Origin: a virus
Strand: one strand, 5' to 3'
Virus record (IMG/VR): IMGVR_UViG_3300042866_001626
Coordinates: 1 to 21,444 of that record
Length of the DNA stretch: 21,444 bases
Every line of letters begins with the position of its first letter. The stretch's first letter is position 1. Both the position numbers and the translations under genes were made by a program. Under the pieces are notes generated by a model. The model did no database searches. It was given only the letters and a program-made list of their open reading frames with translations, and had not been told where the DNA came from. Below, piece by piece: positions 465 through 18,415 of the stretch.

Positions 465-480
465 TTATCGTTAACGATAA
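465..480. promoter_or_regulatory. Dispersed operator site 1: perfect palindrome TTATCGTTAACGATAA
   Basis: A perfect 16-bp palindrome lies one base upstream of the start codon of the AT-rich minus-strand gene. It is one of seven sites of the form TTATCG-N4-CGATAA in this window and the only fully symmetric one. Its position would let a bound protein block expression of the downstream gene. Confidence 0.75.
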
Positions 481-504
481 TATTTAAATAAATTACAATC
501 AAGT

Positions 505-543
505 TCAAAAATGAAAAGGGGAGTTAGTTTTACCTAACCCCCC
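505..543 (-). terminator. Rho-independent terminator after the scaffold gene
   Basis: Read on the minus strand, GGGGGGTTAG and CTAACTCCCC form a 10-bp stem with one G-U pair and a six-base loop, followed by TTTTCATTTTT. It lies 25 bases after the scaffold stop codon and would end the portal-scaffold transcript before the AT-rich gene at the left edge. Confidence 0.8.
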
Positions 544-567
544 TTCCAGCTAACAAGAATAATGGGA

Positions 568-1854
568 TTATGCGGTCACCCTACCTTGCGGAGAAAAGCG
601 AGCTAACTTACTGGCAAGCCCTTCAGCAATACTCATTCTTGGTTTCTGGGAATCCGATGCACTTGGCGAAGATGTGATGCGCGACGAACCTTTCAGTTGC
701 GCGATATACTCATCTTTCTCTTTTACCATTTCATGCAATGCCTTCAGTTGAGCCTGCATCTTTTGGTATGCACGGCCTTGGTGGATCAACCGATTCATGT
801 CTTCCACCGATGCTTGTTCGTTGCTCTGCTGAGTCGCAGCAAGCGCGATAGCCTCGTCACGCGACAAGTCAAACTTGATTCCCTTTTCCTTCATGTAGTC
901 AGCAAGGGTATCTGGGATTGCCGTAGCGTTGTCGATCTCCTGCTGTGTGTTCTTGTAGCTTTCGCGCCACTGATTCAGATACTTATTCCTACCTTCTTGC
1001 TCCCGTTGTTTTGCTGTTTGAAGGATGTTCTGCTTGGTTTCCTCAAAGTTGACGAGGGCTGAATGGTGGTTTTGAGTTGCTTTGATGAAGCTGTTGACTT
1101 GCTCTGCGAATTGATACTGCTTGAATTGCGAAAGCGAGTTCGTGATTTCCTCGAACGCTTGGTCGCGGTCGGCTTCCGCCGCTCGACGATCCTCTTCGGA
1201 TGCCGCATTGAAGATGGAGGCGTTTGCATTGACAGCACGGGAGAATGTTGAAAGAAGCGTTGGATCATTCGATAGCAACTGTCTCGCAGTATCGTAGGTA
1301 TTCTTGATAGGATCGAGGTAATTCTTTTTGAAGTCAGGATTACTCGTAATGTCGTGAAAATCGAGTTTGCTTCGGAGTTCCTTGATCTGCTCTGATAGTT
1401 GTTGCTCAACCTCCAACTTCTCTTGATTGGCTTTGTTGAGTTGATCTTGGTAGTGGTTGGTTTCTGCCGTCGATTTTGACTCGGATACCAGTCGTTCAAG
1501 TTCTTGGATTTTTGTTTCAAACTTGGGGATTTCATCTTTCTTGTATTTCTCAAGTTCTTCTTTGAGCTTGCGGTTCTCTTCGATTTGCCGCTCAACGAAT
1601 CCTTTTTTCTTCCCCGTCCGGTCAGACGTGATTTCAGCTTCGGTAACTCCTGTTGGTTCTTCTTGTGGTTCTTCTTCATTGTATTTAGGTATTCCAAGGT
1701 TAGGGTCGCCAACATTCGTTGCGCTTGGCTTGCCTTCGTCGGCTTGTTGTTTGCTGAACTTCTTGAGGAAGTCAGATGTGTTACCTTTAATCGGGACTTG
1801 AGGTTTAGATTTCAGTTCCGCGATTACGTCTGCTGTGTCGTTTGTGTCTGCCAT
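568..1854 (-). CDS. Scaffolding-like coiled-coil protein
   Basis: A 428-aa, charged, Ala/Gln/Glu-rich protein. Residues about 85-165 form a strong predicted coiled coil with repeated E/K/L heptads (VERQIEENRKLKEELEKYKK); a second helical stretch covers about 355-395. The N-terminus is polar and disordered, and the C-terminus is Ser-rich and basic (LARFSPQGRVTA). Phage scaffolds are typically helical, low in aromatics and encoded between portal and major capsid, and this gene lies three bases after the 81-aa gene that follows the portal. A basic C-terminal tail is usual for the coat-binding end of scaffolds. The start is the ATG at 1854, preceded by TCTAATTT with no clear Shine-Dalgarno. The function is inferred from composition and order, and no catalytic motif is visible. 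A minor virion protein is the alternative. Confidence 0.65.
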   Translation of the reverse strand: MADTNDTADVIAELKSKPQVPIKGNTSDFLKKFSKQQADEGKPSATNVGDPNLGIPKYNEEEPQEEPTGVTEAEITSDRTGKKKGFVERQIEENRKLKEELEKYKKDEIPKFETKIQELERLVSESKSTAETNHYQDQLNKANQEKLEVEQQLSEQIKELRSKLDFHDITSNPDFKKNYLDPIKNTYDTARQLLSNDPTLLSTFSRAVNANASIFNAASEEDRRAAEADRDQAFEEITNSLSQFKQYQFAEQVNSFIKATQNHHSALVNFEETKQNILQTAKQREQEGRNKYLNQWRESYKNTQQEIDNATAIPDTLADYMKEKGIKFDLSRDEAIALAATQQSNEQASVEDMNRLIHQGRAYQKMQAQLKALHEMVKEKDEYIAQLKGSSRITSSPSASDSQKPRMSIAEGLASKLARFSPQGRVTA

Positions 1855-1857
1855 AAA

Positions 1858-2103
1858 TTAGATTTCGTCGAGGTCTGGATCAACCGCGCTATCCGCAGGC
1901 TCTTTATGCTTTGCAGTAGCTTTTGTTTTTTTGAATGCTCCTTGCTCTTCCGTTCCAATAGCATCAATAGTTTTGATTGCATGGATAAGTGTGGTTACTC
2001 CTTCTGGTGGGTTTACATTAAGTAGTAAATACGCCTGTAGTTTGTTCCAGTCTTCGTGTGAGGTTATTGCCGCGCATAGGGATTTTATTTTTTCGGTTGT
2101 CAT
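1858..2103 (-). CDS. Small hypothetical protein between portal and scaffold
   Basis: An 81-aa protein whose ATG overlaps the portal stop codon as ATGA, so the two are probably translationally coupled. The N-terminal half (about 1-50) looks helical and folded (IKSLCAAITSHEDWNKLQAYLLL). The C-terminal third is a polar Lys/Glu/Asp tail ending DPDLDEI. No signal peptide or membrane segment is seen. The family is not recognised. A role in head assembly is inferred only from its place in the portal-scaffold operon. Confidence 0.75.
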   Translation of the reverse strand: MTTEKIKSLCAAITSHEDWNKLQAYLLLNVNPPEGVTTLIHAIKTIDAIGTEEQGAFKKTKATAKHKEPADSAVDPDLDEI

Positions 2104-4607
2104 TGTGGTGTCATTGGTGTGATATTATTCTCCATCTCAACTTCTTCGGTTCCTTCTGGAGTCTCAACCTCTTCGGTTTCAGTCTCCATTTCCTCTGGCT
2201 CCTCTTCTTCCATTTCTGGCTCTTCCATCTCTGGAGACTGCTTGCCTTTCATTGTTGCTTGCTTGGCTTTCTCCTTCTGAATCTCAGCACGAGCCTTAGC
2301 CTTCTGAAGCGCAAGTTGAGTGATACCCTGTTCCTTGCGTTGTTCTGTGCGTTGAGCGTGACTGATAGAAGCCTTTCCAATTGAGATGTCGGCGAGTTTC
2401 TTCTTGGTGTCGATTTCGATGCCAGACTTAGCGGCGAGGTATTGAAGTTTGATGTCTTCCTCGGAGTTTGGTTGACCAGATTTCTGAGCTTCGGCTTCTG
2501 CCATCTGGACGTAAACTTGCTGAAGTTCGTCGGCCATCTTCTGAGCCTCGTTCATTCCCTGCATGAATTGTTTCAAGAAGTCCTGCTTGGATTGGTCTTT
2601 GCTGATATACTCAACGTGCGCCATGATGTGACCACCCTTGAATTTGATTGCACGAACCGCTTTCGAGATTTCAGCAAACTCTGGTTGGCCTTGCTGCACA
2701 GACTGCATATTCATCTGCAACTGCATGACCAAATCTTGGAAGTGACCTTGCGCGTGTTCGATGTGCGGATCAGTTGGTAGCACAGGGAAGTTTGCAGGAT
2801 TGACGAACGCATCAGTCATACCAGCATTTTCAAATCCGATGATACGAGCGGTATCATCAATCTTGCTGACCTTAGTATTCCGGTAGCGAGCTACGTTGTC
2901 TCGTCCAGAGAGTGCCGCGATTGCATCCTTAACTGCGTTCTCTTGCCCCTCGTTGGCTGGAGTGATTGCCGTGATGTTCAGCAACTTCTCTGCCGTAATT
3001 AGCTTGAACGATGGGCTTCCCGCTCCATTGATAAGATTAGAACGGATACTGGTAATATTTTTCCATTGCGCGGCTTCCCTTGGCGTTCCAAGTTCATCCA
3101 AGATTTCATAGAACTTCTTAACATAATCATATCCATCATCGCTGGATTTGGAGTTTACAAATCGTTTGTAGAGTTGCTTGAAGTAAAGCGTTTGACACTC
3201 ATTGAATCGACGGATTTGAGTTCCAGACAATTTGGCTGATTCAGCGGCATCAAGTTCCGCTTCGCCTTTGGTGCGTTGCTTTCCTCCAGCGGTAGGAGCA
3301 TTAATTCGATACTGCCCCATGCCGCGATACATATCTCCCATGAAGAATTGCATGAAGCTCATACTCTCTGCTACTGGAAGTTGGAAGCGGTTCTGAATGA
3401 ACTTAGCACCATCTGGCATCACGCTAATTGGTAGCCATTCCATCTGCTTCAGCATCTTGGTTGCATCTGGGCCTTGTCCCTCAATCATCAGCATGGAGTT
3501 GAGTCGCACCGCATCTACCAGCGAGTTCATTGTGAAGTCATACTGACGGCAGGCGACGAACGCCGATTCCGCTTGGCTCTTGATGTCTTGAAAGAGTCCG
3601 CTTCCCACCGAATCGGTGAGCATATACATGATCTCATCCCATGAGTTGAATAGTCCTACCTTGAGCATCATAAACCCGTGCTGGGTTCTGATGTCATCTT
3701 CACTGATCTTGCCTGCTCCTTTGATGTTGGAGTTGATGTAGTCGGAGATTGGCTGGTAGTCTTGGAGGATAATCGCCTTGCTGATCTTTCCGTCGAACTC
3801 CCTCCAGTATACTTCGTAGAGGTCAATCTTTTGGTTTACAGACAATGACCAGTTGAATCCTGCCTCGCTGATCGTGCGGAAGAAGTCTTCGCGGGTCTTG
3901 CGGTGATTGCTGAATGCGCGGTGGAATCGGATCGCATCAATTGCTGCGTCCACATTCCAGCCCATTGCTTCTGCCGCTGCACGATTCTCAATCTTCTTGT
4001 AGAGTTCGTATGGTGTCAAACGGACACGGCGAACAAACTCCTCAAGGTTGCAGAAGTCGATCCTAATGTCGTCTGGAAAGAGAAGGTCGGAGAGAAAGAC
4101 GTGTTCTGGCATCCATCCCATAGGTGAATCCCACATTCCGATTCCTTTTCCATACAGCAACATTTCCTCAAGGTCTTGCTCTGTGTTGTAGAGGTATCCG
4201 GGCCATTCGCGGATTGCTTGGTCAAATGCGATGGAAATGTTTTCGGAGTTAACGAGCCGTTCTTTTTCGTTTCCATACTTTGTCTTGATCGTGCAGCAAG
4301 CCTGCCGTTCCGTAATGACATCGTAGTAACTGGACTTCTGGTTATCAACGATAAATGCAAGTTGTCCGTAGTTCACATCAGACTGCCAAGGAAGACGTTT
4401 TTCTGCGAGCTTGCTATAACCAGTTGGAGGAAAAGATTTATACGCTTTAAAAATTCGTAAACGCTTGTTCTCTCGACCTATATTAGCAAGACGAAGATGA
4501 TTTGCGATGTTCCAGGCGTGCGAGGCGTTAGAAATTCGTGTTTCGGGTGGCTTGCCGTCTTGATCTAAAACTGCAAGGGAAAAGTTGTCGGAGCCGATTG
4601 AGAGCAT
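2100..4607 (-). CDS. Probable portal (head-tail connector) protein
   Basis: An 835-aa protein, in the size range of large P22-type portals. The N-terminal half is mixed alpha/beta and rich in Trp and Tyr (RLPWQSDVNYGQLAFIVDN near residue 72, then IREWPGYLYNTEQDLEEMLLYGKGIGMWDSP). The middle holds long helices (about 440-500). After residue 640 comes a very long helical region with QEGMNEAQ-type and KAKARAEIQKEKAKQ repeats, and the last 45 residues are almost entirely Glu, Met, Thr and Pro. Long helical C-termini (a 'barrel') are known in P22-like portals. The order portal, small gene, scaffold, all on one strand, fits a head operon, with the major capsid expected beyond the left edge. No motif proves the call; it rests on size, fold type and context. 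The acidic tail may be a disordered DNA-mimicking segment. Confidence 0.72.
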   Translation of the reverse strand: MLSIGSDNFSLAVLDQDGKPPETRISNASHAWNIANHLRLANIGRENKRLRIFKAYKSFPPTGYSKLAEKRLPWQSDVNYGQLAFIVDNQKSSYYDVITERQACCTIKTKYGNEKERLVNSENISIAFDQAIREWPGYLYNTEQDLEEMLLYGKGIGMWDSPMGWMPEHVFLSDLLFPDDIRIDFCNLEEFVRRVRLTPYELYKKIENRAAAEAMGWNVDAAIDAIRFHRAFSNHRKTREDFFRTISEAGFNWSLSVNQKIDLYEVYWREFDGKISKAIILQDYQPISDYINSNIKGAGKISEDDIRTQHGFMMLKVGLFNSWDEIMYMLTDSVGSGLFQDIKSQAESAFVACRQYDFTMNSLVDAVRLNSMLMIEGQGPDATKMLKQMEWLPISVMPDGAKFIQNRFQLPVAESMSFMQFFMGDMYRGMGQYRINAPTAGGKQRTKGEAELDAAESAKLSGTQIRRFNECQTLYFKQLYKRFVNSKSSDDGYDYVKKFYEILDELGTPREAAQWKNITSIRSNLINGAGSPSFKLITAEKLLNITAITPANEGQENAVKDAIAALSGRDNVARYRNTKVSKIDDTARIIGFENAGMTDAFVNPANFPVLPTDPHIEHAQGHFQDLVMQLQMNMQSVQQGQPEFAEISKAVRAIKFKGGHIMAHVEYISKDQSKQDFLKQFMQGMNEAQKMADELQQVYVQMAEAEAQKSGQPNSEEDIKLQYLAAKSGIEIDTKKKLADISIGKASISHAQRTEQRKEQGITQLALQKAKARAEIQKEKAKQATMKGKQSPEMEEPEMEEEEPEEMETETEEVETPEGTEEVEMENNITPMTPQ

Positions 4608-4626
4608 AGAATTTTACTTTTATCTT

Positions 4627-5004
4627 TTACGCTAATGAATTCAAGGCATTTCTTCGTTTGTTACACGAACTACATCCGCGAGCTTTATGCTCAAGTTTAG
4701 TTCCTAAAACTTTGTCAGTAGTCTTGGCTACTGTGTGAATAACCTGTGCAATCTTATCTCCAAGTCCATCGCTATACCAACAACGTTCACTTGGTTGACG
4801 CTGGCAGATTTGATCTTCGACCATCTGCTCAATGTTAGCAGGAAGTTCAACCCCGTTGGAGCGATAGTCTTTCTGGATGTTCTGCATCAACCCGCTCCAT
4901 GTGCTTCCGTAAACAATCGCTGGAAACGTGAGTTTATCGCGCTTGATCTCATAACGCCAATACCAACCGCCGACTGGTGCGAGGTTTTTGTTTTTCAGTT
5001 TCAT
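4627..5004 (-). CDS. Small phage protein with C-terminal Cys pair, upstream of portal
   Basis: A 125-aa protein. The N-terminus reads APVGGWYWRYEI, followed by a short beta/helix region with a conserved-looking VEDQICQRQP segment (about 62-71). The C-terminus has GCSSCNKRRNALN, a CxxC followed by Arg and Asn that could bind a metal. This GGW...ICxxxP...CxxC...RxxxLN plan is familiar from small phage proteins beside terminase or portal genes, but no function is established to my knowledge. GAAAGG seven bases before the ATG is a usable Shine-Dalgarno. It is the first gene of the minus-strand head operon and is divergent from the large terminase across 36 bases. Confidence 0.75.
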   Translation of the reverse strand: MKLKNKNLAPVGGWYWRYEIKRDKLTFPAIVYGSTWSGLMQNIQKDYRSNGVELPANIEQMVEDQICQRQPSERCWYSDGLGDKIAQVIHTVAKTTDKVLGTKLEHKARGCSSCNKRRNALNSLA

Positions 5005-5040
5005 CTTGCCTTTCGTCGGAAAATATATTTTCTTATTGAT

Positions 5041-6894
5041 ATGTCAAGAGTTTTTTCTTCAAACAAAGGTATTCGTCGTTACGGAATTCAATTCCCAGAA
5101 AACATGGATGATCTTGGTATTGAGTTATACTGCTACGCTATAAGCCGAGGCGAGTATGGAAAAGACTATTGCACCAAACAAAATATAAATCTGTCAGATT
5201 TTAAATTACTCTCACCACACGAACACTTCATTAATGCCGTCAAACTCCAATGGCCGACTGAAGTTTCTATCGTTAATCGTGGTTACACCAATACCCAGTT
5301 GTTAAGGACGCTTGAAGAACTTTGTAATAATCAAGACATTTGTTTGGCCGGAGCTGCCTCGATGGGTAAATCCTTTCCAGTTGGATTATGGGTCTATCTT
5401 GATTGGTGCGCTGCACCGCATTGCACTTCATCTTGGGTGGCTACTACTACATTGGGCGCGTCCGAGGATCGTATTTGGGGTATCATCTCCAAGTTATGGA
5501 AGTCTGCTCGCGTTCAGTTTGGCAAGCTCATCGACTATCGCCACATGATTGTTTGGGGTGGCGCGTCTAACGATGAGGATAAAGATTATCGTAATGCGAT
5601 AAAAGCTCTCGCGTTCCAATCTGGTAATGAGGGTCAGAAGGCTATTGATACCACCCGTGGTCGTAAGAATGATCGTATTAGATTGGCACTTGATGAGTTG
5701 CCAGAAATGGAGTTGGGCGCGATTACTGCCAAGGTCAACTTATCCGCTAACAACGATGTGACATTTATCGGTATCGGAAACCCATCTGCTGGTGACAATC
5801 CTCACACTCGTTGGGCAATGCCTAAAGGTGCTTCTAACTTTGATGCAGTGAATCCAGATATGGATAAGTGGGAGACTGAGACTGGCGTTTGCTTGTTCTA
5901 CAATGGTATGCGTAGCCCTAACTTCGCTGCGCCTGCCAATGAACCTTCTCCATTCCCTTTCTTGATGGATCGCAAGAAACAAGAGATCATGCTCAAGCAG
6001 TGTTACGGAGATGAGAATGCTATCGACTATGTTCGTAACGCGATTGGTTGGTGGCCGAAGTCGGGATTTGCTCAGACTATTCTTACTGCCGACTTGATCC
6101 GTAATGCTGATACGAACGAAGAGCCACTTTGGGATTCAGAAGGATTTACCAAGGTTGCTGGATTCGATACTGCGTTTACAGTTGGCGGTGACCGATGCGT
6201 TCTGACTATCGCTAAGTTAGGATATGTGCGCGGGACTCGTAATCGTGTGATGTGGTTGGAAGATCAGAAGATTATCCAGTTATCCGCTAACGCCGCTGCC
6301 GAGTTTGAAATTCAGTTGGCTACTGAAGTTGTTGGGTTCTGTAGAACTGCTGGAGTTCAACCATCCAAGTTTGGTATGGACGTGTCCGGTGATGGTGGTC
6401 GAGTTGGACAAGCTATCATTCGTGAGTGGCTACGCTTTGACGCTGGCGGCGCGGCAATCGCTCTTATCTCATCTATGGGTAAACCTACCGATCGAATCGC
6501 AGCAGAGGTAGATAAACGCCCGTGTAAGGATGTTTATGATAGGCTTGTATCTGAGTATTGGTATTCGGCCTATCATGGATTCAAGAGTCGAGTTCTATTC
6601 GGCGTTGCACCATCATCTGATTTGTCGAGGGAACTTTGCCTGCGCCGATACACCATTAAGTCCAAGAAGATTTCCGTAGAAACCAAAGATGACTTCAAGG
6701 GTAGGACTGGGTTCTCACCCGACTTGGCAGATAGTTATCTTTACTGCCTCGAAATGGCGCGGCGTAATGGACTCGTTTTTATCGGAAACGATAAACCAGT
6801 TCCAACTAACCGATTTTGGGCGCGAGATGAAAAGCCAGTTGAATCATTCTCTGATGACGACGCTTACTCATCAGATGATAATGGAGATTGGTAA
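5041..6894 (+). CDS. terL: Terminase large subunit (packaging ATPase and nuclease)
   Basis: A 617-aa DNA-packaging motor. The Walker A-like loop is GAASMGKS at residues 104-111, and Walker B is LALDE at 215-219 with the catalytic Glu 219. The C-terminal RNase H-like nuclease shows its acidic residues in VAGFDTAF (D376), FGMDVSGDGG (D447) and GFSPDLADSY (D561, D564). The length is normal for the family. The frame is open upstream, but the ATG at 5041 is chosen because the upstream part is antisense to the Cys-pair gene and reads as low-quality protein; codons after 5041 look native. No clear Shine-Dalgarno is present. Unusually, it is transcribed away from the portal, and the probable small subunit is 13 kb off on the opposite strand. 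A dispersed operator-like palindrome lies inside its 3' end at 6779-6794. Confidence 0.93.
   Translation: MSRVFSSNKGIRRYGIQFPENMDDLGIELYCYAISRGEYGKDYCTKQNINLSDFKLLSPHEHFINAVKLQWPTEVSIVNRGYTNTQLLRTLEELCNNQDICLAGAASMGKSFPVGLWVYLDWCAAPHCTSSWVATTTLGASEDRIWGIISKLWKSARVQFGKLIDYRHMIVWGGASNDEDKDYRNAIKALAFQSGNEGQKAIDTTRGRKNDRIRLALDELPEMELGAITAKVNLSANNDVTFIGIGNPSAGDNPHTRWAMPKGASNFDAVNPDMDKWETETGVCLFYNGMRSPNFAAPANEPSPFPFLMDRKKQEIMLKQCYGDENAIDYVRNAIGWWPKSGFAQTILTADLIRNADTNEEPLWDSEGFTKVAGFDTAFTVGGDRCVLTIAKLGYVRGTRNRVMWLEDQKIIQLSANAAAEFEIQLATEVVGFCRTAGVQPSKFGMDVSGDGGRVGQAIIREWLRFDAGGAAIALISSMGKPTDRIAAEVDKRPCKDVYDRLVSEYWYSAYHGFKSRVLFGVAPSSDLSRELCLRRYTIKSKKISVETKDDFKGRTGFSPDLADSYLYCLEMARRNGLVFIGNDKPVPTNRFWARDEKPVESFSDDDAYSSDDNGDW
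6779..6794. promoter_or_regulatory. Dispersed operator site 2 inside terL: TTATCGGAAACGATAA
   Basis: An exact match to TTATCG-N4-CGATAA lying within terminase codons for F-I-G-N-D-K. The identical 16-mer recurs at 9970-9985 in the helicase gene in a different reading frame, so protein conservation cannot explain it. Confidence 0.7.
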
Positions 6895-6902
6895 ATATAC
6901 TA

Positions 6903-6936
6903 AGTTTATACTAATTTAGCTAAAATCAGTATAACT
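6903..6936. terminator. AT-rich inverted repeat between convergent genes
   Basis: AGTTTATACT and AGTATAACT pair with one bulge and enclose the palindrome TTTAGCTAAA. It lies between the terL stop and the stop of the opposing 74-aa gene, where a bidirectional terminator is expected. It has few G-C pairs and no long T-run, so termination is only plausible. Confidence 0.4.
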
Positions 6937-7464: not shown

Positions 7465-7637
7465 CGAAAGTATTCAGTTAGCTCTTTTAAGCCTTTAGCA
7501 GCGTCAATCGGATTGTCGTATTCTAATTTGACGGGGAAAGGTTTTCCTCGTTCGTGCATGGGGGTTGGTCTTCCTGCTGCGTATGGACTGACTTTGAGAA
7601 CGTATAAGCCCTCTTCGGCTTCGATGAAGACGTGCAT
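7401..7637 (-). CDS. Small hypothetical protein overlapping the HTH gene
   Basis: A 78-aa protein with a beta-strand start (MHVFIEAEEGLYVLKVSPYA) and a helical end (DNPIDAAKGLKELTEYFRC). It reads like a real small domain, but its first 115 bases overlap the 3' end of the HTH regulator gene in another frame and its last 64 overlap the HNH gene. Long same-strand overlaps occur in compact phages. The alternative is that one of the two reading frames in 7523-7637 is not used. The HTH domain proper ends before this overlap, so both can be functional. Confidence 0.55.
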   Translation of the reverse strand: MHVFIEAEEGLYVLKVSPYAAGRPTPMHERGKPFPVKLEYDNPIDAAKGLKELTEYFRCYEEKRHLKPKRGSKNEVAS

Positions 7638-7879
7638 AATTCGATGACCTTATCTACTTGTTCTTTTTTTAAAATGCTTTTGGAGTTTACTTCGATCTGG
7701 TTGATGAGTGATCCAGTAACGCCGATCTTGTCACCAAGTTCACGGACAGTCAATTTCAATGCTCGCCGTGTCTCGCGGAGTTGGTTAGCGAAAGTCTTGC
7801 GTCCAAGAGAACGAACTGTGCGTGATTGCTCGTAGGCACTCATGCAAGTTTCATAAGCAGTTTCTAATGGATGTTTCAT
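7523..7879 (-). CDS. HTH (XRE/Cro-CI type) transcriptional regulator
   Basis: A 118-aa protein with an N-terminal helical segment (about 1-30) and an XRE-type helix-turn-helix at 34-88: LRETRRALKLTVRELGDKIGVTGSLINQIEVNSKSILKKE is written here only as its key parts, LTVRELGDKIGV (helix 2) and GSLINQIEV (recognition helix). The tail is polar and may be poorly structured. The start at 7879 is preferred over an upstream ATG at 7912, because the latter lies inside the predicted minus-strand promoter. It faces the 125-aa plus-strand gene across a palindrome that carries both -35 boxes, the classic layout of an autoregulated phage switch. Its DNA target is most likely that palindrome; whether it also binds the dispersed TTATCG sites is unknown. 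Confidence 0.8.
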   Translation of the reverse strand: MKHPLETAYETCMSAYEQSRTVRSLGRKTFANQLRETRRALKLTVRELGDKIGVTGSLINQIEVNSKSILKKEQVDKVIELCTSSSKPKRAYTFSKSVHTQQEDQPPCTNEENLSPSN

Positions 7880-7888
7880 TTCAGAGAA

Positions 7889-7917
7889 AAAATAAACCAG
7901 AACTATTGACAAGTCAA
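7889..7917 (-). promoter_or_regulatory. Promoter of the HTH regulator (near-leaderless)
   Basis: On the minus strand, TTGACT (7917-7912), 17 bases, then TATTTT (7894-7889). Initiation about seven bases on would fall two or three bases before the ATG at 7879, giving an almost leaderless transcript. Confidence 0.6.
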
Positions 7918-7919
7918 TA
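7904..7919. promoter_or_regulatory. Operator palindrome in the divergent switch: TATTGACAAGTCAATA
   Basis: Arms TATTGAC and GTCAATA are separated by AA. The left arm holds the -35 of the rightward promoter and the right arm holds the -35 of the leftward promoter, so one bound dimer could control both. It probably binds the adjacent HTH regulator; this is inference from position. Confidence 0.65.
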
Positions 7920-7942: not shown

Positions 7943-8320
7943 ATGGATAACACTAACAAAATCAAAGACAACGCAGAAAAATTACTTGCTGGAGTAAGGC
8001 AAACTGTCATGGTTACGAATATGTCTTTAGCCGCCGCGCTGGAGACCCCGTTCATGGCTACCTACGAAAATGATGACGGCATTCTCGTCATGGCACTGAG
8101 AGCTAACAACACAGCTATTCTTGCGGCAACTGGCAATAACAGTAATACTGTCATCAAGGCAGATATTATCATAACAAACGAAGGTATCGGTGAACGCCGC
8201 TCCATCTTCCAGTGCGAGACAGAAGAAGATGCCAGTCAAATCTGGGACTTACTCAACGACAAAATGTATGAGTGGTCGAAGGGTGAAGTTGAGCAGGTTG
8301 AAATGGACTGGTTATCGTAA
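7943..8320 (+). CDS. Hypothetical protein, first gene of the rightward operon
   Basis: A 125-aa acidic protein. The start at 7943 (MDNTNKIKDNAEK) is chosen because an upstream in-frame ATG lies inside the -10 region. The N-terminus is helical, the middle is beta-rich (GILVMALRANNTAILAATG, then VIKADIIITNEG) and the end is acidic and helical (ASQIWDLLNDKMYEW). No known motif is seen. As the gene opposite the HTH regulator it occupies the place of a Cro-like or anti-repressor gene, but it shows no helix-turn-helix. Its stop codon lies within dispersed operator site 3. Confidence 0.75.
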   Translation: MDNTNKIKDNAEKLLAGVRQTVMVTNMSLAAALETPFMATYENDDGILVMALRANNTAILAATGNNSNTVIKADIIITNEGIGERRSIFQCETEEDASQIWDLLNDKMYEWSKGEVEQVEMDWLS

Positions 8321-8327
8321 CCGATAA
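8312..8327. promoter_or_regulatory. Dispersed operator site 3: TTATCGTAACCGATAA
   Basis: An exact match to TTATCG-N4-CGATAA. It contains the stop codon of the 125-aa gene and lies nine bases upstream of the -35 box of the replication-operon promoter at 8337, the best placed of all copies to regulate transcription. Confidence 0.75.
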
Positions 8328-9562: not shown

Positions 9563-10794
9563 TGAAAAAAGTCCCAATAGCACGAAAGAGTGAAGTGGCA
9601 GCGTTGTCACTCATCGCAATCGACAGAAACATCCTTTCCCAACAAACATGGGATAGCGATTATTTCGCCATACCAGCCAACAGAATCGTTTTTAATGCGC
9701 TCCAAGGGGTTCACCAGCGGACAGGTTCTTGCTGCCCGTTTTCTGCCATAGCAGAGCTTGAGGCAACTGGTCAGTTGGAAGCAGCGGGTGGCGAGGATGC
9801 GATTCACGAAATGTTCGCTACGATGAAGGTAGCTTCTGGAAAGGTTTGCCAAGATATGGCAGATGACTACCGGAAGCATCTTCACCGCACGAAGGCATAC
9901 CGCGATGTTCTGATCCTCATGGAGAAGGAAGAGCCAAACCTACGGACAGGCAAAGCAAATCTGAAGGAATTATCGGAAACGATAATGAAGTGTGCCGAGG
10001 ATCGCACATCAAAAGTGAAACCAGTCAAAGACCTCATCATCGAAATCATTGATGAGATGGAAGGAAAAGCAGTAAAAGATTTTTACCCTACTGGACTCCT
10101 CAAAGTAGATCGTGCGCTCAAAGGTGGAATGCACAAAGGCGAGATGATGACAGTAGCATCAGAGACAGGTGGAGGAAAATCAATCTATCTTGTGCAAGCG
10201 GCACTCGCAAATCTACTGGAAGGAAAGTCAGTTCTGTTCTTCAGCCTCGAAATGAAAGCGAAGGACATCCTAACTCGCATGGCTTGCAACATCGCTGGTT
10301 ATCCGATTAGAGAACCGGAGGATTACAAGACCGCAAACAAAGACGAACTCGCCAAAATCAGTGGCGCATTGTTAAAATTACACCAGTTACCCCTTGAAAT
10401 CGTGGATGGAATAGCCGAAATTGACGAGATAGAGTGCCATATAAATCGGTATACGGGGGAAAATCGGGCAGATATTATCGTGGTAGATTACCTCCAAATC
10501 ATCGCATTTGATGGTGCAGAAGGCAGAGAAAGCCAGATTTCTGAGATAGCAAGACGCTTAAAGGTAGCTGCGCTCAAGAATAACTCGATTATGCTGACTG
10601 CTTCCCAGCTTAACGACGAAGGAAGACTACGCGAATCACGGGCAATAGGGATGCACTCTGACCAAGTTGTGTATATCGAACACAAGGGAGACAAGAGCAG
10701 GTTGACAATCAAGAAGAACCGCCGTGGTCAGAGGAACTATTCTACGGAAATCATCATGCGCGGTGACATCTCAAGACTTGAGGAGGTTTACTAA
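9562..10794 (+). CDS. dnaB: DnaB-family replicative helicase
   Basis: A 410-aa hexameric 5'-3' helicase of the RecA-fold DnaB family. The N-terminal helical domain covers about 1-120, with a linker helix to about 175. The motor shows Walker A SETGGGKS (200-207), a FFSLEM strand-helix (226-231), Walker B IIVVDYLQI with D309, the TASQLND sensor (347-352) and the KKNRRGQ arginine-finger loop (384-390). It is slightly shorter than cellular DnaB (about 470), as is usual for phage versions. It directly follows the iteron-bearing initiator, matching the P22 12 arrangement in which the phage brings its own helicase. A dispersed operator site lies inside at 9970. The stop shares a base with the next ATG. 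Confidence 0.92.
   Translation: MKKVPIARKSEVAALSLIAIDRNILSQQTWDSDYFAIPANRIVFNALQGVHQRTGSCCPFSAIAELEATGQLEAAGGEDAIHEMFATMKVASGKVCQDMADDYRKHLHRTKAYRDVLILMEKEEPNLRTGKANLKELSETIMKCAEDRTSKVKPVKDLIIEIIDEMEGKAVKDFYPTGLLKVDRALKGGMHKGEMMTVASETGGGKSIYLVQAALANLLEGKSVLFFSLEMKAKDILTRMACNIAGYPIREPEDYKTANKDELAKISGALLKLHQLPLEIVDGIAEIDEIECHINRYTGENRADIIVVDYLQIIAFDGAEGRESQISEIARRLKVAALKNNSIMLTASQLNDEGRLRESRAIGMHSDQVVYIEHKGDKSRLTIKKNRRGQRNYSTEIIMRGDISRLEEVY
9970..9985. promoter_or_regulatory. Dispersed operator site 4 inside the helicase gene: TTATCGGAAACGATAA
   Basis: Identical over 16 bases to the site in terL, but read here as L-S-E-T-I rather than F-I-G-N-D. The difference in frame argues for selection on the DNA itself. 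Confidence 0.7.
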
Positions 10795-13111: not shown

Positions 13112-13365
13112 ATTGCCCGAATTGCAGTAAGGAAACAATAGTCAAAGACAGTAGGAAGAAAGACAACTCAGTAATACGAAGAAGACTCTGCGATTGTGGA
13201 GAGAAGTTCACTACCAAAGAAGTAATCGTTGAACTCAAACGAGGAAATTACGAAAGAAAACCTATTCAACCAATAGCAATGAGCCAATCTGCTAATGGTA
13301 ACTGGACAATAACAATAGATGATAACACGCCCGAATGGGCAAGAAAGATGCTGCTTAACCTATGA
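13108..13365 (+). CDS. NrdR/Ogr-like zinc-ribbon protein
   Basis: An 85-aa protein. The N-terminal half is a zinc ribbon: MNCPNCSKETIVKDSR (C3, C6), then RRRLCDCGEKFTTKE (C28, C30), the same shape as the N-terminal domain of NrdR (CPxC...DSR...VxRRRxCxxCxxxFTTxE). The ATP-cone domain of true NrdR is absent, so a ribonucleotide-reductase repressor role is not supported. Small phage zinc-ribbon proteins of this type are probably DNA-binding regulators. The C-terminal half (WTITIDDNTPEWARKMLL) is of unknown function. Confidence 0.75.
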   Translation: MNCPNCSKETIVKDSRKKDNSVIRRRLCDCGEKFTTKEVIVELKRGNYERKPIQPIAMSQSANGNWTITIDDNTPEWARKMLLNL

Positions 13366-13568
13366 GTATCCCGCAATTCCTTTTTATCTATGCCAAAGAA
13401 GGTAAGGTAAGATGCTTAACGCCAGATGAAGCGCACAGAGAAACCTTAACAGGTAAAGGATGGACGCACACAGCAACCATTAACCCCGCAAGATGGATTG
13501 AAGCTATGGCAAATGGCGATCAAGACCCATCAGATATGTTAGATGAAATTCAATTTAAAAAACCATGA
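13362..13568 (+). CDS. Small hypothetical protein, 68 aa
   Basis: ATGA overlaps at both ends. The sequence reads FLFIYAKEGKVRCLTPDEA, TGKGWTHTATINPARWIEAM and SDMLDEIQFKKP: a short beta hairpin followed by a helix ending in acidic residues. It lies between the zinc-ribbon gene and the glycosyltransferase. The family is not recognised. Confidence 0.7.
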   Translation: MSIPQFLFIYAKEGKVRCLTPDEAHRETLTGKGWTHTATINPARWIEAMANGDQDPSDMLDEIQFKKP

Positions 13569-14692
13569 GTATCGTAAACGATAAATTCCGCTTCCATATC
13601 CTCGGCTTGCCTCACACAGTAAGTTCCAAGGAGTTTAATGCCTGTGCCTATACCCAAAAAGTGGTGAAGTTCGGGAAGATGATGACCCAGCGCGGCCATG
13701 AAGTAATCCACTACGGACACGAAGATTCAGACCTGATCTGCACAGAACACGTCCCTGTTCTAACAAACGATGACTTCAACAAAAGCTACGGATCACATGA
13801 CTGGAGGAAGACATTCTTCAAGTTCAATACGAATGACCACGCCTATCAAACCTTCTACCGAAATGCGATTAAGGCAATCGGGCAGCGTAAGAAGAAAAAC
13901 GACTTCATTCTCCCATTCTGGGGAAGCGGAGTAAGACCAATCTGTGACGCGCATCCTGACCTAATCACAGTTGAGCCGGGCATTGGGTATGCTGGTGGAC
14001 ATTGGGCGCGGTGGAAAGTATTTGAATCCTACGCAATCTACCATGCGTTCTGTGGAATGCAGGCAGTAGGTAATTGCCAGCAAGATAACTATGCCGTGGT
14101 AATCCCCAACTACTTTGATAAAGAAGACTTCGACTTCTGTGACCAGAAAGAAGATTACTTTCTATATCTGGGTAGGGTATACTCTGGAAAAGGTGTAGAT
14201 ATTGCCATTGAAGCTACCTACCGAGCGGGAGTTAAACTGGTCATAGCAGGCCAAAAAGAGGAAGGTTACAAGTTACCAGACCATGTTCACTATGTAGGAT
14301 ACGCCGATGTTTCTACCAGAAAGAGGCTCATGTCGAGGGCCAAAGCATCCTTCCTACCAAGTCAGTATGTAGAACCATTCGGTGGAGTCCAAATAGAAAA
14401 CCTACTCTCTGGCACTCCAACAATTACATCTGATTGGGGTAGTTTCACTGAAAACAACCTACATGGAATAACAGGATTCCGATGCCGCACGATGGGAGAT
14501 TACGTAGATGCTATCAAGAATATCGACCGGATCTGCCCATACGACTGCCACCGATTCGGAAAGAACTTCACCTTGGAGCGAGTAGCACCCATGTATGAGA
14601 AATACTTCTCAGATGTCATGGATGTCTATACCGGAGACGGGTGGTATTCCAAAGGAAACGACATCGAAGCCATGAACAGATACTATCCATGA
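13565..14692 (+). CDS. Glycosyltransferase, GT-B fold (family 4-like)
   Basis: A 375-aa protein. The N-terminal Rossmann-like half (about 10-180) begins FRFHILGLPHT and holds a GHEVIHYGHE strand-turn. The C-terminal nucleotide-sugar-binding half begins YFLYLGRVYSGKGVDIAIEA (about 198-217), then KLVIAGQ, and contains the GT4 donor-binding segment SQYVEPFGGVQIENLLSGTP (266-285) with E270 and E278, and SDWGSFTE. The substrate is unknown. In phages such enzymes modify modified bases, virion proteins or host surface sugars. Gene order next to a dCMP-type deaminase hints at nucleotide or DNA modification, but no base-hypermodification enzyme is seen here. Operator-like site 5 overlaps codons 2-7. 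Confidence 0.85.
   Translation: MSIVNDKFRFHILGLPHTVSSKEFNACAYTQKVVKFGKMMTQRGHEVIHYGHEDSDLICTEHVPVLTNDDFNKSYGSHDWRKTFFKFNTNDHAYQTFYRNAIKAIGQRKKKNDFILPFWGSGVRPICDAHPDLITVEPGIGYAGGHWARWKVFESYAIYHAFCGMQAVGNCQQDNYAVVIPNYFDKEDFDFCDQKEDYFLYLGRVYSGKGVDIAIEATYRAGVKLVIAGQKEEGYKLPDHVHYVGYADVSTRKRLMSRAKASFLPSQYVEPFGGVQIENLLSGTPTITSDWGSFTENNLHGITGFRCRTMGDYVDAIKNIDRICPYDCHRFGKNFTLERVAPMYEKYFSDVMDVYTGDGWYSKGNDIEAMNRYYP
13569..13584. promoter_or_regulatory. Dispersed operator site 5 at the glycosyltransferase start: GTATCGTAAACGATAA
   Basis: One mismatch (first base) to TTATCG-N4-CGATAA. It starts two bases after the ATG of the glycosyltransferase gene. Its place at a gene start favours a regulatory meaning, although one mismatch makes it weaker than the exact copies. 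Confidence 0.55.
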
Positions 14693-15201
14693 ACTGGGAC
14701 GAATACGCAATGAGCATAGCCGAGGTAGTGGCTAAGAAGAGTAAAGACCCGTGGCATAAAGTCGGCGCGGTGATACTCAGAGAAGACAACTCCATAGCCT
14801 CAGTAGGGTATAACGGATTCCCACAAGGTGTAGAAGAAGACTGGTCATCAAGAGAAGAGAGATCAAAGTTCGTCATTCACGCAGAGCAGAATGCTTTGAG
14901 GTATACAAACCCCGGAGAAGGAAAGACACTGGTATCCACCCTCCTGCCATGTAGAGACTGCCTAAAGACCATAGCCGCCTATAAGATAAAGAGAGTCCTC
15001 TACAAAGAAATCTACAAATCCGACCCAATAGCCATAGAGATAGCAGAAAAAATGGGAGTCACAGTAGTCCAATTTAAGAAAGAACCACTAACCTCCTACT
15101 GGGATCATAGCGGAAAACCATCTGTATTCGTAGTAAGGAAAGCACAGACGGAAATCTATCGCGGAACCTACCCAAACGGGGCAAAACTACTTGTTCCATG
15201 A
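14689..15201 (+). CDS. dCMP/cytidine deaminase family protein (ComE-like)
   Basis: A 170-aa zinc-dependent deaminase. The zinc site shows H-A-E at 64-66 (catalytic E66) and P-C-R-D-C at 87-91 (C88, C91). Preceding blocks HKVGAVI and YNGFPQGVEE are typical of dCMP deaminases, which convert dCMP to dUMP for dTMP synthesis. The ATG at 14689 overlaps the glycosyltransferase stop; an upstream in-frame start would lie within that gene and is rejected. About 35 extra C-terminal residues (SYWDHSGKPSVFVV) are beyond the core. No thymidylate synthase or dUTPase was seen in the window, so the product would feed host enzymes. Confidence 0.88.
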   Translation: MNWDEYAMSIAEVVAKKSKDPWHKVGAVILREDNSIASVGYNGFPQGVEEDWSSREERSKFVIHAEQNALRYTNPGEGKTLVSTLLPCRDCLKTIAAYKIKRVLYKEIYKSDPIAIEIAEKMGVTVVQFKKEPLTSYWDHSGKPSVFVVRKAQTEIYRGTYPNGAKLLVP

Positions 15202-15281
15202 ACGACCAGATAGCAGCAATAATCTTAGCATGGAGCATAGTAGTAGCCTGCTTCATAGTAGAAACAACAACGAGAAGGTAA
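15198..15281 (+). CDS. Tiny single-pass membrane peptide, 27 aa
   Basis: ATGA overlap with the deaminase stop. The peptide is almost wholly one hydrophobic helix (IAAIILAWSIVVACFIV) with MNDQ before it and ETTTRR after, giving an outside/inside charge bias towards N-out, C-in. Phage membrane peptides of this size may be holin-like or host-interfering, but its place in the early block gives no direct clue. The overlap and membrane-helix composition make it more likely real than chance. Confidence 0.5.
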   Translation: MNDQIAAIILAWSIVVACFIVETTTRR

Positions 15282-15393
15282 TTTGAGAGCAATAACGTGG
15301 CATTGTGGCGGGGGATAAACCTTGGCGGGTCAACCTCTGGTCAGTAAGTAAACCATTCCAGTAATCACATAAAACTGGGACTCTCACGATAAT

Positions 15394-15939
15394 ATGAATA
15401 CAAAAATCGGCGCACTACCAACCCATCGCTACATCTGGATAGATAGCGAATATACCCACGAAAAACCAATCGGGCCAGTAGAAGCTATGTGGGTAGGACT
15501 AACAAGCATCCCAAGTAGAGCATGGGGAATAAACGTAATCCTAAGAGAAGGCGGCGCACTCTACAGAAACCTGCCACCAAACGCAGTAAGATTCAAAGAG
15601 AACTCAATCGAAAACTGGCGCATAGAAGAAAGCCAACTCTGGGACTGCTACTCATACAACTTCTCAATACTACAGAACCCAATCCTATCAGGACTCCCCA
15701 TAACCGCGAAGATCGGCCCAAATACCTACAAAGGTAAATACCTATTCTCCACCACCCACCTAAACGACGGCTGGTCAGATAGCCCAGAACAAGACAAAGA
15801 ATTCATCTTCGCCCAACTAAACAACGGAAGACTAACCATCCAACCAACAAATAGAATAACCTTCCAAGATAACTCCTACACCCTCCCCACCCTCCCAAAA
15901 CTCAAACTCCAAGATACCATCTACTCCTGCGAACAATGA
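15394..15939 (+). CDS. Conserved-looking hypothetical protein, 181 aa
   Basis: A soluble, beta-rich protein: HRYIWIDSEYTHEKP, MWVGLTSIPSRAWGINVIL, GALYRNLPPNAVRF, then SQLWDCYSYNF, KGKYLFSTTHLNDGWS and NGRLTIQPTNRITFQDNSY. The blocks L-x-S-x-P-x-R-A-W-G, Y-R-N-L-P-P and L-T-I-Q-P-T-N look like family signatures I have seen in uncharacterised phage proteins, without known function. A 112-base gap precedes it, ending in CACGATAATATG, a half-copy of the dispersed operator. Its stop overlaps the next ATG. Confidence 0.75.
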   Translation: MNTKIGALPTHRYIWIDSEYTHEKPIGPVEAMWVGLTSIPSRAWGINVILREGGALYRNLPPNAVRFKENSIENWRIEESQLWDCYSYNFSILQNPILSGLPITAKIGPNTYKGKYLFSTTHLNDGWSDSPEQDKEFIFAQLNNGRLTIQPTNRITFQDNSYTLPTLPKLKLQDTIYSCEQ

Positions 15940-16217
15940 ACAGCATCCTCGAAACAGCAATTGAAGTAACAACAGGCGACCGTCGCCGCGACTACGATAA
16001 AGCCACACCAAACCATAAAAGAATAGCAGATGGATGGAACTGGTATATAGCATCCCGCAAAGACCCAAATGCCCCACTCTCAGCCTTGGACGTAGCACAC
16101 ATGATGATTATTCTAAAATTAGCAAGAGCGTGCTACACCCCAACACGGGATACCTATGTAGATATAGCAGGATACGCTAAGTGTGCTTCTCAAATATCAA
16201 AATTTGAAGATGAGTAA
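15936..16217 (+). CDS. DUF6378-like phage protein
   Basis: A 93-aa protein. The pattern LETAIEVTTGDRRRDYDKA...NHKRIADGWNWYI...LSALDVAHMMIILKLAR...DTYVDIAGYAKCA matches a widespread small phage family I recall as DUF6378 (number from memory). The shape, with conserved G-D-R-x-x-x-Y, N-H, D-V-x-x-M-M and D-x-A-G-Y, recalls an all-alpha nucleotide-handling protein such as the MazG-like group, but this is speculation. It is the last gene of the early block, and operator-like site 6 begins at its stop. Confidence 0.8.
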   Translation: MNSILETAIEVTTGDRRRDYDKATPNHKRIADGWNWYIASRKDPNAPLSALDVAHMMIILKLARACYTPTRDTYVDIAGYAKCASQISKFEDE

Positions 16218-16233
16218 TTATCGGTAACGATAA
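16218..16233. promoter_or_regulatory. Dispersed operator site 6: TTATCGGTAACGATAA
   Basis: An exact match to TTATCG-N4-CGATAA, directly after the stop codon of the DUF6378-like gene and at the head of the long repeat-rich region. It is followed by TATAGG, much as site 1 is followed by TATTTA. Confidence 0.75.
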
Positions 16234-16775
16234 TATAGGTCAACGTAACTGCATGGGAGCGAAGTATAGATATACGCATTACTAAAAATAGCAGTTTTTC
16301 TAAGGAGAGGGGTTTTCCGCATTGGGAGTTACGCGCACGGGGTGCATGGGGTAGAGGGGTGATGGCATCGCCGCTCCATAAGAAAAGAGATTCCTTGGAG
16401 TCCCGCGGCCCGCCTATGCTCACAGCGCCCCTGCTTAGTACAGTCTCACAGCGTGGCAGCGTGCAGCGTGGTGCATAGTATATATGATGAGTGATGACAA
16501 GCCGAGCCGATTGCCAATGATGTCTGGCTTATTGAGACTCAAAAAGCGTCGGGACTTATTACTGATATTATCAGAATATATTATTCTCAATAAGAAGATG
16601 AAATAATGCAAGCAAGTTGCAATAATCTTTGCGCGAGGTTGGCGTAGGATTGCGTTGATTGAATAGAGCGGGGCTATGCTATGGGGTGAAAATGGGTGCA
16701 ATCGCACTTTCGAGCGATGACCAGAAAACCGATTCCATCATGGCGAGAATTACAAAGCCATACGCAATATGGCAA

Positions 16776-16877
16776 ATATCGCTGTTTGGCGATATAACGA
16801 TTTGGCGATATAATATCCAATGAACATATCTTCATATCATGATATGTTGATCTGACTCTATCGCTGTATGGCTATAT
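16776..16877. repeat. TTTGGCGATATAA-type repeat cluster
   Basis: ATATCGC-TGTTTG-GCGATAT (16776-16795) is a perfect 7-bp inverted repeat. TTTGGCGATATAA occurs twice (about 16785-16797 and 16801-16813), and a related ATCGCTGTATGGCTATATA follows at about 16859. The cluster lies 55-150 bases upstream of the promoter at 16932, which suggests regulator binding sites or iterons. Confidence 0.5.
16833..16846. repeat. Perfect 14-bp palindrome CATATCATGATATG
   Basis: It lies within the repeat cluster and is flanked on the left by another CATATC. It is a probable dimeric-protein site, 86 bases upstream of a -35 box. Confidence 0.5.
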
Positions 16878-16931
16878 AGCAGTGGCACGCGATTTGCTTA
16901 TACCTTTTTTTATTTTGTCAAAAAAAATCTG

Positions 16932-16959
16932 TTGACATATTCGCACAATGTAGTATCTT
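16932..16959 (+). promoter_or_regulatory. Promoter of the accessory cassette
   Basis: TTGACA (16932-16937), 16 bases, TATCTT (16954-16959). TAGTAT just upstream of the -10 resembles other -10 boxes here but would be only 13 bases from the -35. A leader with the hairpin AGCCCTTA-GAA-TAAGGCT follows. Confidence 0.6.
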
Positions 16960-17077
16960 GTTTCCCGTGCTGACTGCGGAAGCCCTTAGAATAAGGCTCT
17001 GCGGACTGAATCACAAATTGATCTTTGACTAAAAAAACTTTTCGCTCCTGTCTTTTGATAGTGTGCGAATCAATCCA

Positions 17078-17188
17078 ATGAATAAGCAAACCTATGCGTT
17101 AAGGATCAAACTTGCTTCTATGACGGACGCAAAAAAAATCCATGCGCTCAGACTAAAAATCCAACAACTCGAACAAAAGAAAAAATGA
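17078..17188 (+). CDS. Small basic peptide, 36 aa
   Basis: ATG at 17078, stop overlapping the next ATG at 17185. It is basic and helical throughout: MNKQTYALRIKLASMTDAKK, then LRLKIQQLEQKKK. The frame ends exactly at an ATGA junction, which supports real translation and coupling to the 89-aa gene. It could be a leader peptide for that gene or a functional small protein. Confidence 0.5.
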   Translation: MNKQTYALRIKLASMTDAKKIHALRLKIQQLEQKKK

Positions 17189-17454
17189 ATATCACAAATA
17201 CTACAGACTTGAAAAACGCGATTCGTTCGGGAGCTTATAGCTTCCCCGGTTGCTATCCCTTATTCTTTATCACTTCAGACGGGGCCGCGCTTTCTTTTGA
17301 TAGCGTGAAGGAGAATTTTCGCTCCGTCCTTTGGTCTATTAAAAACGAAGTCAATGACGGCTGGCGGGTTGTCGGCTGTGACGCGAACTGGGAAGACGGC
17401 GAGCTTACTTGCGATCATTCTGGCAAACGCATCGAATCTGCATACGCTGGCTGA
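17185..17454 (+). CDS. Conserved accessory protein, 89 aa (phage/plasmid type)
   Basis: The sequence has the blocks RSGAYSFPGCYPLFFITSDG, ALSFDSVKENFRSVLWSI, GWRVVGCDANWED and LTCDHSGKRIESAYA. Proteins with G-A-Y-x-F-P-G-x-Y-P-L-[FY]-F-I-T-S-D-G and L-T-C-D-H-[ST]-G-K-R-I-E-S-A-Y-A ends are common in phages and plasmids, often among anti-restriction and other early genes, but no activity is established to my knowledge. Two Cys and one His near the end might bind metal. It starts the accessory cassette, coupled to the preceding 36-aa frame. Confidence 0.82.
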   Translation: MNITNTTDLKNAIRSGAYSFPGCYPLFFITSDGAALSFDSVKENFRSVLWSIKNEVNDGWRVVGCDANWEDGELTCDHSGKRIESAYAG

Positions 17455-17510
17455 GATTTCCCCCTATAACCTAAACCTAAACCTAAAACACAATAGAATA
17501 CACTAACAAC

Positions 17511-17861
17511 ATGAAAACAACATTATCCACTTCAGAAGCGGCAGACATCCTATTTAACGACAAAAATGCAAACTGGTCTTATGCTGGTGCGCGTGCCTTG
17601 GTTGAATACTTGGAAGAATATGAGGAGAGCACCGGAGAGGAATTAGAATTTGATTATGTCGCCATCCGCTGCGACTTCTCTGAGCATGATTCCCTTGTAG
17701 AATGGGCGAATGACTACTTCGCGCATGATAATTGGCGGGATAATGTGAAATGCGATTATGAGGCTGATGAGAGTGAGCTTGATGAGAAAATACGCGAATA
17801 TATTCAAGACCACGGGCAGCTAATCGAATTTGAAGGCGGGATTATCGTCTCCTCGTTTTAA
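17511..17861 (+). CDS. Acidic conserved accessory protein, 116 aa
   Basis: A strongly acidic protein, over a quarter Asp and Glu. Blocks are NANWSYAGARALVEYLEEYE, EELEFDYVAIRCDFSEH, SLVEWANDYF and IQDHGQLIEFEGGIIVSSF. The A-N-W-S-x-x-G-A-x-A-L and V-A-I-R-C-D-[FW]-S-E-[YH] patterns recur in a phage/plasmid family of unknown function. Its charge would suit a DNA mimic such as anti-restriction proteins, but that is inference. The leader contains ACCTAA three times and is CA-rich, with no Shine-Dalgarno. A terminator follows at 17870. Confidence 0.82.
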   Translation: MKTTLSTSEAADILFNDKNANWSYAGARALVEYLEEYEESTGEELEFDYVAIRCDFSEHDSLVEWANDYFAHDNWRDNVKCDYEADESELDEKIREYIQDHGQLIEFEGGIIVSSF

Positions 17862-17869
17862 TCCAAAAT

Positions 17870-17898
17870 GCGGCAAGTTCGACCCTTCGCCGCTTTTC
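17870..17898 (+). terminator. Rho-independent terminator
   Basis: GCGGCAAG and CTTCGCCGC pair around a seven-base loop with one bulged C, followed by TTTTCTC. It lies nine bases after the stop of the acidic gene and just before a TATAAT at 17904-17909. Confidence 0.75.
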
Positions 17899-17912
17899 TC
17901 TTATATAATATC

Positions 17913-18107
17913 ATGAAAAAACTATCTAAAGAATATTATTTTGAATTGGCGCAATTTTGCATGGATTATCACAGTGGCCAGTGGTCAAGAGGCTATCGTC
18001 TCATTTCCCGCCTTCGTCCCTCTAATTTCTCCTCCTCACTATCTGAGGAGCTAAGAGAATCGGAGGCTTACCAATGGCTTGTAGAAAATTACTCTGAAAA
18101 AATCTAA
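17913..18107 (+). CDS. Small hypothetical protein, 64 aa
   Basis: The start at 17913 (MKKLSKEYYFEL) is chosen because the longer frame would run through the terminator. The protein is helical and aromatic-rich: LAQFCMDYHSGQWSRGYRL, then SEELRESEAYQWLVENYSE. TATAAT ends four bases before the ATG, so the mRNA might be very short-leadered if it is a -10, but no good -35 is seen. The family is not recognised. Confidence 0.7.
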   Translation: MKKLSKEYYFELAQFCMDYHSGQWSRGYRLISRLRPSNFSSSLSEELRESEAYQWLVENYSEKI

Positions 18108-18111
18108 TCTA

Positions 18112-18222
18112 ATGAATAAACTATCCTCTTCTTTCCAATACAACCGCGCAAAATCCCGCTTTTTCGGTCTTTTGCTTACACTCTCCACAATTGGCGCAAT
18201 CCTGATATTCGTCTTGTTGTAG
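18112..18222 (+). CDS. Small membrane protein, 36 aa
   Basis: ATG four bases after the previous stop. A polar basic N-terminus (NKLSSSFQYNRAKSR) is followed by one hydrophobic helix (FFGLLLTLSTIGAILIFVLL) running to the C-terminus, predicted N-in. It is a possible tail-anchored membrane peptide. The tight spacing and clean topology support it; the function is unknown. Confidence 0.5.
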   Translation: MNKLSSSFQYNRAKSRFFGLLLTLSTIGAILIFVLL

Positions 18223-18415
18223 CCTCTTACGCATTGCGGGTTTCGTCCGATCCGATCCCGCTTTGCCCTATTTGCCCCGCATCCTCTCTTTTATTCTCTC
18301 TCCGCTACTATGCCATTCCTCTTTTCTTTCGCGCATTCTTGCGGCTTTGATCGTTTCCGATAATCCCTCCACACTGATTTTCCCTCCACAACGCCAAACC
18401 ATAACACAACACAAC
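18223..18415 (+). other. 193-base leader region with operator and repeat motifs
   Basis: A C/T-rich stretch without a gene. It holds dispersed operator site 7 (18348-18363) and two CCCTCCACA motifs (18365-18373, 18382-18390), then a CA-rich, Shine-Dalgarno-free leader (ACACAACACAAC) before the ATG at 18416. Confidence 0.6.
18348..18363. promoter_or_regulatory. Dispersed operator site 7: TGATCGTTTCCGATAA
   Basis: One mismatch (second base) to TTATCG-N4-CGATAA. Read on the other strand, its core TTATCGGAAACGAT equals the first 14 bases of sites 2 and 4. It is intergenic, 52 bases before a start codon. Confidence 0.55.

Follow-up and report, generated by a model that had tools for sequence, protein, structure and literature searches.

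Seven copies of a 16-bp inverted repeat, TTATCG-N4-CGATAA, lie scattered through a 21,444-base stretch of virus DNA (the window; a virus record without taxonomy), and we find that they belong to a real, genome-wide dispersed-site system that is maintained at the level of the DNA and conserved in relatives, as the initial annotation of the window had proposed. The sites look like protein-binding DNA sites under selection. We consider it probable that each copy is the two-fold-symmetric 16-bp binding site of a phage-encoded protein that acts genome-wide, most likely a 255-amino-acid (aa) ParB/LmbU-like protein.

All seven sites of the initial annotation are present, five as exact copies and two with one mismatch (see the table). 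Its argument that they are too many for chance also holds: 300 Markov shuffles of the 21,444-base window gave means of 0.003 exact and 0.03 one-mismatch copies, compared with the 5 and 2 observed. With up to two mismatches allowed, the window contains 11 copies against 0.95 in dinucleotide shuffles, which is the enrichment control that the annotation had suggested. Because the shuffled controls fall so far below the observed number of copies, a chance origin was rejected. Among the two-mismatch matches, the one at 4620–4635 is a true site that has decayed in this particular genome: 43 of 52 relatives have an exact copy at the orthologous position. The matches at 5765 and 10475 show no conservation as sites.

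Positions of the dispersed sites and related features in the 21,444-base window, with their conservation among orthologous sequences.
Feature	Position	Strand	Conservation or match
Dispersed site, exact, TTATCGTTAACGATAA	465–480	.	exact in 1/1 orthologue; few orthologues to compare
Eighth site, decayed, 2 mismatches, TTATCTTTTACGCTAA, at the end of a 125-aa gene	4620–4635	.	
Dispersed site, exact, in terL near its 3' end, codons F-I-G-N-D-K	6779–6794	.	exact in 65/65 distinct orthologues; synonymous positions fixed
HNH nuclease, 107 aa	7141–7464	-	in G058 and 14/15 family genomes; not found in site-less sisters
XRE-type HTH regulator	7523–7876	-	Pfam HTH_3, E 1.3e-5
Separate operator-like palindrome TATTGACTTGTCAATA (core TTGACNNGTCAA) beside the HTH gene, outside the dispersed set	7904–7919	-	
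Dispersed site, exact; spacer TAA is the stop codon of a 103-aa gene	8312–8327	.	exact in 39/41 orthologues, one mismatch in 2/41
Dispersed site, exact, in DnaB-like helicase gene, codons L-S-E-T-I	9970–9985	.	exact in 35/36 orthologues, one mismatch in 1/36; synonymous positions fixed
Dispersed site with one mismatch, at the outermost base, immediately following the glycosyltransferase start codon	13569–13584	.	same one-mismatch class in 14/14 orthologues
Dispersed site, exact, immediately following the stop of a 93-aa ORF (15936–16217)	16218–16233	.	exact in 3/3 orthologues
Dispersed site, one mismatch (second base)	18348–18363	.	one mismatch in 16/16 orthologues

The window is part of a phage genome of approximately 54 kb, as seen from its match to a longer record (G001, 53,215 bases) at 99.99% identity over 20,828 bases; terminal repeats in three genomes give a size of 54.5–55.1 kb. 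The terL gene of the window (5041–6894, phrog_2) has 279 relatives in IMG/VR and none among 50,697 annotated phage records. The annotation had named a lack of further copies in the rest of the genome as evidence against it, but such copies are numerous: G001 carries 16 sites, and the near-complete relatives, whose gene calls come from a simple ORF caller, all carry 12–33. Sites with at most one mismatch number 6–30 in all 30 long records tested, compared with 0–1 for the reversed pattern. More distant records, reached through the 255-aa protein, contain 5–33 sites, the low counts coming from short fragments, and a further set at 61–66% identity contains 12–25. Neither an integrase (three records) nor a related prophage or host (terL search of 84,980 genomes) was found, and a role in lysogeny is thus not supported, although lysogeny of a plasmid-like kind may still occur. 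The glycosyltransferase of the window (13565–14692; phrog_3408, E 4e-190) is 68–72% identical to those of the Synechococcus phages S-CAM7 and ACG-2014f, while the other genes are much farther from known phages.

Conservation in relatives, whose absence the annotation had likewise named as evidence against it, is strong: at five of the sites (6779, 8312, 9970, 13569 and 18348) a copy with no more than one mismatch is kept in 172 of 172 distinct orthologous sequences. The copies in terL and in the helicase gene allow the level of selection to be read most directly. They are the same 16-mer read in different frames, from which the annotation had concluded that selection acts on the DNA, and the synonymous positions that it had proposed to inspect are fixed at both sites, which points the same way. 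Specifically, the codons under the site have a conservation of 0.96 in terL and 0.98 in DnaB, compared with gene medians of 0.59 and 0.64, and the level at the site is reached by only 4 of 613 windows in terL and 3 of 406 in DnaB. Rare-looking codons (TCG, ACG and ATA) are fixed under these two sites, and variation is limited to bases that the consensus permits: the changes at the terL site, GGA to GGT and AAC to ACC, both fit it.

The 349 distinct sites in relatives give the symmetric consensus (W)TTATCG-K-W-W-M-CGATAA(W), in agreement with the pattern that the annotation had drawn from the window. Their flanks are near background, on which ground a mobile or repeated element was rejected. 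Both spacer orientations occur. An entirely different explanation would be that the sites work as RNA hairpins at gene junctions, of the form UUAUCG-GAAA-CGAUAA with a GNRA-type loop: the common spacers GAAA and GTAA would indeed form such loops, and copies are frequent at the ends of genes and immediately ahead of start codons. However, the spacers TAAA, GTTA and TTTC also occur, symmetric spacer variation being allowed, and the orientation bias fits A-rich coding strands. Nor is any other stem enriched: in six genomes TTATCG is the arm of 74 of the 184 perfect 6-4-6 inverted repeats, the next arm accounting for 6, and where mismatches occur they mostly affect the outermost pair, with no compensatory change. 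A lone enriched arm combined with uncompensated mismatches points to DNA recognition by a symmetric protein and away from an RNA stem, and we find the hairpin explanation barely credible.

Of the 140 sites in six genomes, 80 are placed outside ORFs of at least 100 aa (34 expected), and 35 are no more than 40 bp away from the beginning or end of a gene (15 expected); several exactly occupy the space that separates a stop codon from the following start, and in others the TAA of the spacer is itself the stop codon. On average there is one site per 2–3 kb. Across nine genomes, neighbouring sites are spaced more uniformly than chance would give (Fisher P = 5e-12, a value that overstates independence as the genomes are related). 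Under a null model that takes gene junctions into account, even spacing is still seen in four of six genomes (P between 0.005 and 0.03) and not in the other two.

Which protein reads the sites? The candidate named in the initial annotation was the XRE-type HTH regulator at 7523, which would then be the repressor of a classical stoperator system. The regulator is universal in the family (23 of 23 genomes searched) and its gene lies between two sites in the window, but it has a palindrome of its own, which the annotation had correctly described as different from the dispersed one. This palindrome, TTGACNNGTCAA, is found at the HTH start in every member checked, is kept even where the identity of the HTH protein is just 50%, and occurs once in each genome with the regulator and not at all in genomes without it. 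Furthermore, the phage G058 has 10–12 dispersed sites and lacks this HTH. Given a conserved operator that tracks the regulator exactly and a phage with the sites alone, the regulator was rejected as the binder of the dispersed sites, and we regard this candidate as highly improbable.

G058, a 48.8-kb phage reached by a scan for one exact 16-mer, also allows a comparison of gene content. Its terL and portal proteins have 24–29% and 22% identity, respectively, to those of the family, and it encodes a copy of the 255-aa protein at 26% identity (E 2e-14). (This copy, at L304:6762–7442, is a 226-aa singleton with no close relative in IMG/VR.) A terL search found sisters of G058 at 56% identity, of which G086 and G087 (44.9 and 42.6 kb) have no sites and no match to the profile of the 255-aa protein; no other dispersed palindrome was found in the site-less sisters. 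Altogether, the 255-aa protein is encoded by 16 of 16 site-bearing genomes checked and is absent from four site-less relatives, which are records of one clade plus one more distant record, two of them longer than 42 kb, and may be incomplete. This co-occurrence of gene and sites corresponds to one independent event, G058 versus its sisters.

The same comparison bears on a host protein as the binder. If a nucleoid, replication or regulatory protein of the host bound the sites, the phages would simply carry host sites, and the same core motif does occur across phages of 44–54% GC and widely differing relatedness, as a conserved host protein would require. Against this, the sisters of G058 lack both the sites and the phage protein, and unrelated long phages with the exact 16-mer mostly have 1–2 copies, one AT-rich lineage having 4–5. 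We therefore consider a host protein rather unlikely. The AT-rich lineage (G096, G098, G099, L543–L553; G101) is unrelated and has genomes of 60–89 kb with a G+C content of 33–35%, where the 4–5 near-copies lie at shared places; no 255-aa homologue accompanies them, and they may be due to chance in AT-rich DNA.

Only two G058 proteins occur in almost all family members but not in the sisters: the homologue of the 255-aa protein (15 of 15 genomes) and the HNH nuclease (14 of 15), which makes the HNH protein a formal alternative binder. The sites could in that case be targets of this nuclease or of a recombination system, marking points of breakage or repair instead of serving transcription or architecture, and an exonuclease-like gene (phrog_2139) and a gene for a 271-aa protein do lie just upstream of the 255-aa gene. 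However, what the 107-aa HNH protein matches are general phage HNH families, and it shows no obvious domain that could read a 16-bp site, whereas the families matched by the 255-aa protein are DNA-binding ones. We assign this alternative little probability, and the 255-aa protein remains the preferred binder.

The 255-aa protein is encoded at G001:28122–28895, outside the window, which is why it could not be seen by the reader who made the initial annotation. It has no match in Pfam, PDB sequences, annotated phages or plasmids, and no homologue in 84,980 genomes. The sole curated sequence family that matches it is the NCBIfam LmbU family (NF038070), with 28.8–31.9 bits (E 1e-6 to 1e-7; far below the curated cut-off of 125 bits). 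The match covers the HTH region (residues 76–204 of 255 on profile positions 12–135 of 171), which on this basis is homologous to LmbU. The HTH region is also the best conserved part of the protein, with S-Y-S-T-V-S shared with the G058 copy; the N-terminal tail is acidic. AlphaFold modelling on two alignments (with a mean pLDDT of 76 and 84) predicts a helical DNA-binding-like domain and a five-strand C-terminal domain, the latter of which may be comparable to the SH3-like dimer domain of KorB. For both models the best Foldseek matches in the PDB are Noc/ParB, with probabilities of 0.99–1.00 but E values of 0.07–0.1, which are not significant; against the DNA-binding domain of Noc in complex with its site, the target-normalised TM score is 0.66.

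A site lies near the 255-aa gene in some clades only: in two it is located 53–71 bp upstream of the gene and in two slightly past the gene's start. In the clade of the window the nearest is at −689, so that autoregulation of the gene is not general. ParABS partition was rejected: a ParA-type ATPase (PF13614) is absent from 11 genomes, a control being detected in 14 of 14 cases, and the ParB N-terminal CTPase domain (PF02195) gives no match over the cut-off in 13 genomes.

The computed sites, their DNA-level conservation, their even spacing and their co-occurrence with the gene, together with the predicted fold and the LmbU match, make the 255-aa protein the putative binder of the dispersed site (e.g. 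TTATCGGAAACGATAA). We infer that a dimer of the protein would bind the 12–33 sites round the ~54-kb genome, and that the bound protein would act on the genome as a whole. Bound at sites that lie mostly at gene junctions inside operons on both strands, the protein could block transcription in the manner of a stoperator-like roadblock, and/or it could bridge sites and thereby loop or organise the phage DNA. We favour a genome-wide silencer or organiser and make no choice between the two. A more specific version, which we offer only tentatively as it is somewhat doubtful, is that the phage has its own nucleoid- or nucleoid-occlusion-like organiser: a CTPase-less dimer of the ParB/LmbU fold that sits on evenly spaced palindromes and folds, positions or shields the DNA during infection. 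Such a role, if true, would be undescribed for phages without ParA.

The nearest known systems are stoperators, KorB/OB and Noc/NBS, each of which differs from the present sites in at least one tested feature. In cluster A mycobacteriophages (L5, Bxb1, TipsytheTRex), more than 20 repressor sites are distributed over a genome of ~50 kb, many of them intergenic (PMC9283540, PMC6550527), and these stoperators halt RNA polymerase (PMC9283540). The parallel drawn in the initial annotation stands as far as the many sites over a phage genome (here 12–33), many in short intergenic spaces, are concerned. It does not extend to the site itself: stoperators are 13 bp long, asymmetric, read by a monomer and oriented with transcription in temperate phages, whereas here the site is a 16-bp palindrome with both spacer orientations, neither an integrase nor a prophage was detected, and the candidate protein is of another family.

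KorB of plasmid RK2, a member of the ParB family, acts from dispersed palindromes, OB, to silence genes (PMC11790492), but it contains the N-terminal CTPase domain of ParB and acts together with KorA; here we found neither ParB_N nor a ParA-type ATPase. Noc of the Firmicutes binds 16-bp palindromes (NBS) scattered over the replicon through a ParB-type HTH domain (PMC7383237, PMC8429893, PMC4331003), and is similar both in the form of its sites and as the best structural match to the predicted fold of the 255-aa protein. However, Noc is a cellular membrane-binding CTPase, whereas the phage protein has an acidic N-terminal tail and no CTPase domain. LmbU of actinomycetes is an HTH regulator that recognises its palindromic target as a homodimer (PMC6510168); it binds an 8-bp palindrome at a few promoters, whereas the phage sites span the replicon. 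Our literature search on dispersed phage palindromes and on the site sequence found no description of the present system.

Very few systems are known in which dispersed DNA sites act on an entire phage genome, and stoperators, the most familiar of them, serve lysogeny in mycobacteriophages. The sites described here would add an independent case, from a large group of uncultured phages, that differs in site symmetry and in protein family and so far shows no sign of lysogeny. With the candidate binder, the ParB/Noc/LmbU HTH group would gain a role across a whole phage genome that involves neither ParA nor CTP; the binder is named, and its gene could be synthesised from the known sequence.

Some further observations concern individual genomes. 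G029 (L101:10115–11288, L102:5381–6118) carries a QueD-like gene (phrog_2389, PF01242) and a PAPS-reductase-like gene, and the gene neighbouring the QueD-like one (phrog_15826) resembles DpdA by eye. This set, of which the comparison with five further full genomes showed no counterpart, possibly serves 7-deazaguanine DNA modification. Finally, a Shine-Dalgarno-like sequence precedes only 20 of 90 genes of at least 150 aa in G001, G025 and G029 (L085–L087, L097–L102), and many starts in these three genomes are preceded by AT-rich leaders, e.g. TAATATT-ATG, which may hint at the host group.
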